Positions 4,888-41,917 of a stretch of 64,000 nucleotides of DNA are shown piece by piece. Source of the DNA: Desulfomonile tiedjei DSM 6799 (GTDB taxonomy: Bacteria > Desulfobacterota > Desulfomonilia > Desulfomonilales > Desulfomonilaceae); contig NC_018025.1 in assembly GCF_000266945.1 (NCBI RefSeq), forward strand, positions 124,001 through 188,000, read 5' to 3'. The notes under the pieces are model-generated. The model ran no database searches. It was not told the DNA's origin and saw only the letters and a list, made by a program, of their open reading frames with translations. Position 1 is the first letter of the stretch, and each line of letters opens with the position of its first letter. The position numbers were made by a program, and so were the translations under genes.

Positions 4888-5073
4888 GATGACCTCCGTC
4901 AGATAGTACACGTACATAAAATATGGTGAGCATCGAATCACGAGTCAAATCGAGGATAGCGGTTGACACTGAGGCGCACATGATCGATTTTTATTCCAAC
5001 CTGATTCAGGCAACTATCTTTTCTATAAATTGTCCCAACCTGTGGACTCGAATATACATGTGTGAGGTAGACT

Positions 5074-31784: not shown

Positions 31785-31882
31785 ACTCATTGACTCGTAA
31801 CAAACCATACAATATGCTGAAAAGAGGCTCTCAAGCCTGAAAGGAAAATTACGAAAAGGAGGGTGTCGGCAGTGACACAGAA
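31785..31882 (+). repeat. Promoter/leader direct repeat, copy 2 (in place before the peroxiredoxin)
   Basis: This is the partner of 29471-29568 and lies directly before the peroxiredoxin. It ends in AAAAGGAGGG, which could serve a GTG start at 31872 in the same frame, so an N-terminal leader of 35 residues is conceivable. Confidence 0.8.
31790..31818 (+). promoter_or_regulatory. Likely sigma-70-type promoter of the selenocysteine peroxiredoxin
   Basis: TTGACT at 31790-31795, a 17-base spacer, then TATGCT at 31813-31818. The same arrangement is kept in the repeat copy at 29471-29568 although the spacer has changed, which supports it as a conserved element. Confidence 0.5.
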
Positions 31883-31976
31883 AGTTGACGGCTGCGTCGT
31901 GCCTGCTAAGGGTCCAATTAGATCGAAAGAAATTACCGAAGCCACCGGACACGCTGAAAGGAAGGAGGAACCGATT

Positions 31977-32582
31977 ATGACTATCGCTCGTGTGGGAAGA
32001 CCTGCACCTGACTTTGAAGCAAGTGCTTACATAGAGAACGGATTCAGGAACATAAAACTTTCGGAGTTTATGGGGAAATGGGTGGTTATCTGCTTTTATC
32101 CGGGTGATTTCACCTTTGTTTGACCTACCGAACTAGCGACAGTTGCCGCAAAACATGATGAATTAGTCAAAATGGATGTTCAGGTTCTCTCCATAAGCAC
32201 AGACAGCCGCTTCGTTCATAAGATCTGGGACGAAGAGGAACTGTCGAAAATGGTCCCCTCCGGAATTCCTTTCGCAATGCTCTCCGATCCAGGTGGAGAA
32301 ATCGGAAAAGTCTACGGTGTATACGACGAAGCTGCCGGAGTCGATATTCGCGGCAGATTCCTTATCGATCCCGATGGTATCATCCAGGCCATGGAAGTCA
32401 TGACTCCGCCGGTGGGACGCAATTTCTCCGAACTCGTACGTCAGGTAAAAGCATTCCAGCACGTCCGCCAGAGCGGAGGCTCCGAAGCCACTCCAGCAGG
32501 GTGGAAACCCGGTGATCCCACTTTGAAACCGAGCCCTGCGCTGGTCGGAAAGGTGTGGAAAGAGTGGAAGGTCTCCGAGTAG
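31977..32582 (+). CDS. Selenocysteine-containing peroxiredoxin (AhpC/TSA type)
   Basis: A 201-residue peroxiredoxin with an in-frame TGA at 32121-32123 (codon 49). The flanking text 'FYPGDFTFV-(TGA)-PTELATVA' is the peroxidatic Cys motif with the Cys codon replaced by TGA, so TGA most likely inserts selenocysteine, as in the known PrxU. The downstream 'TPAGWKPGDP' occupies the place where the 2-Cys AhpC resolving Cys usually lies, but that Cys is absent, so the enzyme is probably of the one-Cys (here one-Sec) type. It reduces peroxides with an external thiol. AAGGAGGAA precedes the ATG at 31977. The RNA after the TGA can form only a modest hairpin by eye (GAACT...AGTTG); the SECIS is unproven. 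A standard gene finder would split this gene. Confidence 0.9.
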
Positions 32583-32600: not shown

Positions 32601-32711
32601 GCAATCAAAATTAAGTCCGATTTAAGATAAGAATATTGGTGGATGCCGGCCTCCGTGCCGGCACATCTTTTGTATGATTAATGATATCGATAGAAGGAAC
32701 CTCCAGAGCCC
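32601..32711 (+). repeat. Paired REP-like element, copy before the GNAT gene
   Basis: It keeps the ATTGGTGGATGCCGGC start, the CCTCCGTGCCGGCAC palindrome and the AT-rich centre with GATATCGATAGAA of 5674 and 14121. The second palindrome has decayed. Confidence 0.65.
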
Positions 32712-41167: not shown

Positions 41168-41917
41168 GTGCGCCTGTGAGCGTACTTGATCAGAGAGGTG
41201 CAAGTCCTCTCCAGGTATACCTTCTCCGGCCTGTAACCGACTGTAACTGCGTCGTCGTGAGGCGGGGTGGAGAGCAACAGGAGGTGAACGACCAGTCCGT
41301 AGGATAACGAACCTGTTTCGGCCGGGTGGTTTCGGCGAGCCTGCTAGCCTATGGCGAAGCCTAGACCCGTGGTTGGGAAGGCATTGAGTTGCCGAAGTAC
41401 CAGTGCGGGAAATCTGTCGAGCTGATGGGTAAGGTGTAAAAGCGATGACAGAGGGCCACCAGGTGGTTGGGGACGGAATGGTCTGGACGGTTGAGTACGT
41501 GAAGCAGGGAGATCTGTGTGCGGGAGAGACACACACAGAAGTCAGAGCCTCCATAGTAGCGTTGAGACGCCGTAATGGGCGAGGAGCAAAGGGAGGCAGG
41601 AAGGTGGGTGCGCAACAGTCAGAAACGCGGAATATACACCGGTATCGAGTGACCGTTTGGCCTAGACCGCCGGAGACATCCGCTGCTATCAGATGGACTA
41701 ACCGTGTATTACGCTGACACCGCACGCTGGCTACCTCTGTAATGGAGGAGAAGGCTTCGAGTCTTTCGCCACATCTGGATGTTCTCTCGTCTGCATCCTC
41801 TGCGTGGTTAGTCAGTCCCCTCGGGGGTGAACCACCGACTGGAGAGCCGTATGCGGGAGATCCGCACGTACGGTTCGGAGGGGGGAGCGCCGGGTAACCG
41901 GTCGTTCCTACCCCTAT
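41168..41917 (+). mobile_element. ORF-less group II intron (~750 nt)
   Basis: The 5' end reads GTGCGCC, the group II start consensus. Domain V, at 41844-41876, is GAGCCGTATGCGGGAG, a short loop, then CCGCACGTACGGTTC, with the AGC catalytic triad and a typical stem; domain VI follows (GGGGGGAGCGCCGGG... CTACCCC) with a candidate bulged A near its end, and the 3' end is probably TAT at 41917. Joining its flanks gives GTGGCTA then CTATTGGGG, like GTGGCTACGATAG in another array (48738). No reverse-transcriptase frame is present, so splicing and mobility would need protein supplied in trans. The insertion point, just after a hairpin, is typical of class C introns. Confidence 0.85.

Follow-up and report, generated by a model that had tools for sequence, protein, structure and literature searches.

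A selenocysteine peroxiredoxin gene of Desulfomonile tiedjei with a conserved N-terminal cysteine arm and a likely second translation start

A peroxiredoxin reading frame of Desulfomonile tiedjei DSM 6799 carries an in-frame TGA where the codon for the peroxidatic cysteine belongs, raising the questions of whether this codon is read as selenocysteine (Sec) and, if it is, how the oxidised Sec would be resolved in a protein that lacks the usual resolving Cys. The gene, here called prxU, lies within the window, the whole stretch of 64,000 nucleotides that was analysed. Sec peroxiredoxins have been known since 2001, when the one from Eubacterium acidaminophilum was reportedly described by Soehling et al. 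The initial annotation of the locus had stated that Sec forms of this family exist, and they are indeed a listed family in the accessible parts of PMC13188914, PMC9312934, PMC1794560 and PMC4046663. The features of the locus, all on the plus strand, are as follows.

31856–31862, +, AAGGAGG, Shine-Dalgarno sequence 9 nt upstream of the long start GTG 31872
31872–32582, +, long prxU reading frame, GTG start, 236 aa made up of Cys motif, linker and Prx domain (NF040737, 406.1 bits, model positions 2–232 of 233)
31893–31895, +, TGC encoding the conserved N-terminal Cys, residue 8 of the long form (Cys8), in DGCVVPAKGPI
31926–31961, +, variable linker from the Cys motif to the Prx domain, predicted with low confidence and probably disordered
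31962–31968, +, internal Shine-Dalgarno sequence AAGGAGG, 8 nt before ATG 31977
31977–32582, +, short reading frame (the gene of the initial annotation), Prx domain, 201 aa, Sec49
32091–32093, +, TGC codon of Cys39, ten residues ahead of Sec
32121–32123, +, TGA predicted to be read as Sec at the peroxidatic position (YPGDFTFVUPTE), codon 49 of the short frame
32134–32151, +, predicted SECIS hairpin, arms 32134–32141 and 32144–32151, GU at the tip
32490–32492, +, ACT (Thr172), in the column of the 2-Cys C-terminal resolving Cys according to structure alignments and the family alignment
32644–32663, +, intrinsic-terminator-like hairpin 3' of the gene, a pattern match only (4 matches to the pattern in the region versus 1.1 expected from shuffling)

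The selenocysteine codon and its decoding

The short frame contains a single in-frame TGA and continues for 152 residues past it to a stop after residue 201, the length of frame beyond the TGA being that given in the initial annotation. Its product scored 122.7 bits with the Pfam domain AhpC-TSA, 36.1 bits with 1-cysPrx_C and, against a curated cut-off of 270, 388.2 bits with the NCBIfam model PrxU (NF040737), rising to 406.1 bits when the upstream extension described below was included. The TGA lies at the peroxidatic position of the PxxxTxxU motif and is aligned to the peroxidatic Cys in all three solved-structure alignments shown, and the Pfam, NCBIfam and PDB sequences place the product in the AhpC/Prx1 group. 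Thr172 stands opposite the resolving Cys of 1we0 and 1qmv in the structure alignments, and the resolving Cys found in the C-terminal arm of typical 2-Cys (AhpC/Prx1) enzymes is thus absent.

Relatives were collected in two samples, the first consisting of the best 80 of 161 loci found in the contigs of other genomes by a scan with peptide patterns that excluded the TGA codon itself, and the second of the matches listed from 395 genomes of the same phylum, a set that is incomplete at its weak end. TGA was present at the catalytic codon in all 80 loci of the first sample, and in the combined, deduplicated set of 222 proteins this codon is TGA in 211 and TGC or TGT in 11, so that every member has a Sec or Cys codon at the position for which such an alignment had been proposed. 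Excluded from the 222 were remote peroxiredoxins of the same genome (L131, L132, L134 and L142), L136–L141 (no qualifying match), Cys peroxiredoxins of <42 % identity (L033, L034, L035, L069 and L073), eight duplicates and the partial match G388; six members that were retained score below the PrxU cut-off, and all six are among the 49 that lack the N-terminal arm described below. The five loci with the excluded Cys peroxiredoxins carry a YPLDFTFVCP-type gene in the same locus as a Sec gene, and two others (L181 and L251) hold two PrxU genes inside one stretch.

A bacterial SECIS element downstream of the UGA is strongly supported by covariation across the relatives; the copy in the window is itself weak and folds poorly alone. 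When 903 column pairs, numbered from the U of UGA, were compared in 207 distinct sequences, the pairs 15–30, 16–29, 18–27 and 21–24 ranked as the top four. Watson-Crick combinations occupy 734 of the 828 cells of these four variable pairs versus 355 (sd 12) after shuffling, which does not preserve relatedness as the 903-pair comparison does; the counts out of 207 (expected values in brackets) are 180 (69), 153 (69), 199 (110) and 202 (107), respectively. Three of the four join third codon positions, so that coding constraints do not account for the covariation. Pairs 17–28 and 20–25 are almost invariant, while 19–26 fails in 18 of the 207, including the window. Six or seven of the seven pairs from 15–30 to 21–24 can form in 201 of the 211 TGA forms and five in the window, where six of the eight pairs of the hairpin can form and the other two are A.A and A.C mismatches. 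The 11 Cys forms have one to six of the seven pairs, and a GU tip with both adjoining pairs is found in none of them (L257, with six pairs, has a UU tip). The hairpin belongs to the best local fold of 187 of the 207 sequences but not to that of the window, which is a 3-bp stem of -3.3 kcal/mol (mean of all, -9.7), and it was recovered neither by folding the 63 nt after the UGA nor by RNAalifold on the 207 rows. A 14 nt segment, GCGACAGTTGCCGC, is identical in the window and in L021–L024.

The decoding genes for which a search had been recommended (selA, selB, selC and selD) were all found in the genome (6.53 Mb, two contigs). The selA, selB and selD genes scored 599, 404.5 and 367.6 bits, each above its cut-off, which was exceeded in one, two and two, respectively, of 14 control genomes. 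The tRNA-Sec scored 69.5 bits with a looser cut-off that 5 of the 14 control genomes also exceed, and was called by ARAGORN as tRNA-Sec with anticodon UCA. The selD gene itself includes an in-frame TGA (SGUASK). Further TGA-containing genes of this genome are a second PrxU gene (L133/L260, C1:804340–805023, minus strand; 378.7 bits compared with 399.9 for prxU of the window), in which a signal-peptide-like stretch (MKRSLISPLMVAILLLIVV...) precedes the Cys motif, and a Prx-like UxxC gene (L136, C1:2112227–2112667, minus strand; GVWUPYC) with a good hairpin 3' of the TGA as judged by eye. The product of the former is possibly an exported selenoperoxiredoxin made without an internal start, and one family relative (L202) resembles it in having a signal-peptide-like stretch before the Cys motif.

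Two explanations that would remove Sec from the protein were considered. Apart from the in-frame TGA itself, nothing points to a sequencing error or a pseudogene, and because the TGA is kept in all of the best 80 of 161 loci and in 211 of the 222 relatives it is not a chance occurrence; with the frame likewise intact in those 211 and in the second PrxU copy of the same genome, this explanation is ruled out for practical purposes. The alternative that UGA is read as cysteine draws on a tRNA-Sec-like tRNA with anticodon GCA, called as tRNA-Cys (C1:3562734–3562821; L002, L010 and L259), that scores 51.9 bits to tRNA-Sec, has an 8/4 arm and U73 by eye, and is followed 130 nt downstream by a second selB (C1:3562952–3564838). 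This arrangement agrees with that of the selC*/selB* pairs described for Syntrophobacterales and Desulfobacterales in the available portion of PMC7609411, which proposes opal-codon reading for related genes that have the anticodon UCA. However, the anticodon here is GCA rather than UCA, on which ground cysteine insertion by selC* was rejected, and the full Sec set including tRNA-Sec(UCA) is present, making this alternative highly improbable. None of the outcomes named at the outset as contrary to Sec (no selABCD, no folded SECIS, no Sec- or Cys-containing relatives, or a sequencing error) was encountered. Hence, from sequence comparison, the presence of Sec at the catalytic position is near certain, and prxU very probably encodes a real selenium-containing, peroxide-removing enzyme.

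Genes found within about 3.5 kb of prxU among the best 80 of the 161 loci, with names read by eye rather than from a family search, include those for superoxide reductase (15), rubrerythrin (11), ferritin-like proteins (8) and Fur/PerR-like regulators (8), a setting that would fit the peroxide defence of anaerobes. Elsewhere in the window, the end of a group II intron was found at 41842–41917 (Rfam RF00029, 58.2 bits).

The N-terminal arm and the two candidate starts

The frame upstream of ATG 31977 is open to GTG 31872 and farther, and the in-frame extension bearing a conserved Cys that it encodes was not part of the initial annotation. From GTG 31872, which was selected on its spacing (an in-frame GTG at 31863 abuts the Shine-Dalgarno sequence), the extension adds 35 residues consisting of a conserved Cys motif followed by a variable linker, and Sec49 of the short form becomes Sec84 of the long form. 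The NCBIfam PrxU model includes the extension, and many members match from model position 1–3. An arm with the Cys motif, usually GC[AV][RK]P[TA]GG[PV][VI] and 21–35 residues ahead of the start of the Prx match, is present in 173 of the 222 family members (L242, scored by pattern as having the arm, lacks it by eye and was moved accordingly), and the named members that have it carry the labels of 15 phyla; six of the seven Bacillota loci in the set are without it. In 307 close pairs, the differences at codon positions 1/2/3 were 0.14/0.11/0.60 in the motif and 0.14/0.07/0.53 in the core versus 0.58/0.52/0.64 in the linker; by this measure, the Cys motif is conserved as protein and the linker is not.

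The AlphaFold model, in which the Prx domain is of high confidence, gives residues 19–34 a pLDDT of <50 and includes no confident docking of the arm (mean pLDDT of 51 for residues 1–10 and 71 for residues 11–20), and the arm is probably flexible. The conserved Cys was also considered as a lipoprotein Cys and this was rejected, as a hydrophobic stretch precedes it only in L133 and L202; in L182, a hydrophobic stretch lies upstream of the likely start. All of these signal-peptide-like stretches were judged by hydropathy only. In one relative (L058, just before position 5001), ATG TAG closes the extension frame immediately ahead of the Prx domain, a nonsense codon or an assembly error that would spoil both starts.

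An in-frame ATG stands directly before the Prx domain in 165 of the 173 members with the arm, and in 158 of them an ATG is preceded, at 4–12 nt, by a Shine-Dalgarno match of at least 5 nt, compared with 89 of 809 ATGs in the core; the former count is slightly inflated by taking the best of several ATGs. The codon test is independent of that choice: of the 94 cases of Lys-Glu ahead of the internal ATG, 90 use AAGGAG, when the codon usage of the genes themselves would predict 22.0 (sd 3.8), and for Lys-Glu elsewhere in these genes the figure is 21 of 104. Where Lys-Glu is missing, the 24 nt ahead of the ATG still include AGGAG or GGAGG in 63 of 71 members. Compared in register, the last nine codons before the Prx domain, with the Shine-Dalgarno sequence among them, vary roughly as much as the linker (0.51/0.52/0.56 in close pairs) and, therefore, the signal shows by content and not by position; GGAG mostly lies 10 or 13 nt from the ATG, i.e. 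the site slides by one codon. We read this codon bias as selection on the internal Shine-Dalgarno sequence as RNA. The long start is preceded by a Shine-Dalgarno match of at least 5 nt in 159 of the 173 members (best of several candidate starts), and in 43 of the 49 members without the arm such a match precedes the start at the Prx-domain site. The two members with a signal-peptide-like stretch, L133 from the same genome and L202, have no working internal start, as would be expected if that start serves a cytoplasmic short form. Hence, prxU is likely to be a two-start gene, and we infer from the sequences that both products are made.

Resolution of the oxidised selenocysteine

One of the features by which peroxiredoxin subfamilies are told apart is whether, and where, they have a resolving Cys, according to the part of PMC8945050 that was accessible. 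The initial annotation described the protein as a probable one-Sec peroxiredoxin in which the resolving Cys is missing as well. This holds for the C-terminus, but the long product carries the conserved N-terminal Cys, the one-Sec label could hold only for the short product from 31977, and both forms contain Cys39; the label was only partly right because the ATG from which it was drawn appears to be the second of two starts.

Cys39 is found in 172 of the 173 members with the arm versus 18 of the 49 without it, and only the phylum sample (106 of 107 versus 10 of 41) gives a fair count of it, since one peptide of the contig search (KWVVICFY) contained this Cys. Other candidate resolving Cys residues were counted at columns 172, 174, 73, 160 and 194, and none is present in 141 of the 173 members with the arm versus 6 of the 49 without it, or in 95 of 107 versus 4 of 41 in the phylum sample alone, though these plain counts ignore relatedness. 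On a FastTree tree the association between arm and resolving Cys was not significant, an underpowered comparison of 5 supported independent pairs (averages: resolving Cys opposite, 2.3; same, 0.0; no difference, 2.7), although its direction agreed with that of the counts. In 21 members the arm occurs together with Cys172, so it is not just a substitute. Six members (L227, L237, L241, L244, L058 and L084) have neither the arm nor another candidate Cys; the first four are Sec forms from genomes of the same class as the window, and are perhaps true one-Sec peroxiredoxins.

The scheme that we favour, with somewhat better than even confidence in it as a whole, is that prxU has two starts, that a tethered Cys resolves Sec in the long form and that the short form is a one-Sec subunit. 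Initiation at GTG 31872 would yield a product consisting of a one-Cys peptide, a flexible linker of roughly 20 residues and the Prx domain, and initiation at ATG 31977, with its own ribosome-binding site, one without the Cys peptide; in both, SelB and tRNA-Sec would insert Sec at the UGA, directed by the SECIS hairpin just downstream. The Sec selenolate would reduce peroxide and be converted to Se-OH, which in the long form would be attacked by the tethered N-terminal Cys to give an Se-S bond that thioredoxin could reduce, the N-terminal Cys thereby standing in for the missing C-terminal resolving Cys. For the short form, the thiol would have to come from outside or from the arm of an adjacent subunit in the ring. 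For the resolving role of the N-terminal Cys taken separately, we put the chances at about even.

Three other readings compete with all or part of this scheme. Internal Shine-Dalgarno-like stretches may pause ribosomes, and the internal AAGGAGG could be such a pausing site or a chance purine stretch in a gene that makes only the long product, as might be suggested by the 15 of 173 members that do not have the internal start as defined above and by the lack of both ATG and Shine-Dalgarno sequence there in L133, L036 and L038. However, the ATG at 4–12 nt from the Shine-Dalgarno match in the other 158 argues against this, as do an in-frame GTG after the purine stretch in four of the eight members without an ATG (L039, L040, L047 and L055, by eye) and the lack of a working internal start in both signal-peptide-like members, and we regard a long product alone as unlikely. 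Translation from ATG 31977 only, with the upstream region an untranslated leader and the product an ordinary one-Sec peroxiredoxin, would agree with the excellent Shine-Dalgarno sequence at that ATG and with the members that lack the extension and start there, but it is very unlikely given that the upstream motif is constrained at codon positions 1 and 2 and free at position 3, that 173 of 222 members carry it in frame and that it is served by a separate start. The N-terminal Cys could instead link subunits by Cys-Cys bonds or dock a reductase, with Sec resolved by Cys39 or an outside thiol. Human PRDX4, which ties with others for the best match in the fold comparison (Prx domain only), provides a model, since its flexible N-terminal extension forms Cys51-Cys51 bonds between dimers (PMC3824332, in the part available), and the near-constant Cys39 in members with the arm and the 21 members that keep Cys172 beside it point the same way. 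A pure cross-link does not explain why other candidate resolving Cys residues are so much rarer in members with the arm, a count that ignores relatedness, and we consider this reading a serious one with a little less than an even chance.

If resolution by a tethered Cys from two starts is correct, a single mRNA yields subunits with and without a resolving Cys and the chemistry is set at the level of translation. More tentatively, there may be a class of selenoperoxiredoxins spread over many phyla in which a swinging N-terminal Cys is the resolving thiol and the ratio of start-site use tunes Sec resolution in mixed rings. The arm and second start offer a concrete and cheap test of how Sec is resolved without the usual Cys, for which no account was found in the literature searched, and a gene caller that settles on one start, or ends the gene at the TGA, can miss what may be its most important part.

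Comparison with known systems

The closest known system is PrxU, represented by the NCBIfam model NF040737 and the Sec peroxiredoxin of E. acidaminophilum, with which the protein shares Sec at the peroxidatic position, a Prx1/AhpC-like fold and a family model of which the extension is a part. The Cys arm and second start are absent from the descriptions of PrxU found, as far as these were accessible, and were not met in the literature searched, a search that had most subscription papers and the 2001 PrxU paper outside its scope; an N-terminal place for the resolving thiol was likewise not met for the PrxU family. The bacterial genes infB, clpB and cheA have two in-frame starts, and prxU resembles them in specifying long and short products in one frame with a second ribosome-binding site; no two-start peroxiredoxin or selenoprotein was met in the same literature.

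AhpC and other typical 2-Cys (Prx1) enzymes share the fold, the PxxxTxxC/U site and the 1-cysPrx_C domain, but in the protein studied here there is no C-terminal resolving Cys (Thr172), and Sec replaces Cys. In the fold comparison, which covered residues 35–233 and so left the arm outside, the Z scores were 25.6 for human Prx4 and 25.3 for rat Prx1. Human PRDX4 is also similar in that its N-terminal extension is flexible and bears an additional Cys, Cys51; however, from the available part of PMC3824332, PRDX4 is a Cys enzyme that keeps its C-terminal resolving Cys, and its Cys51 bonds to Cys51.
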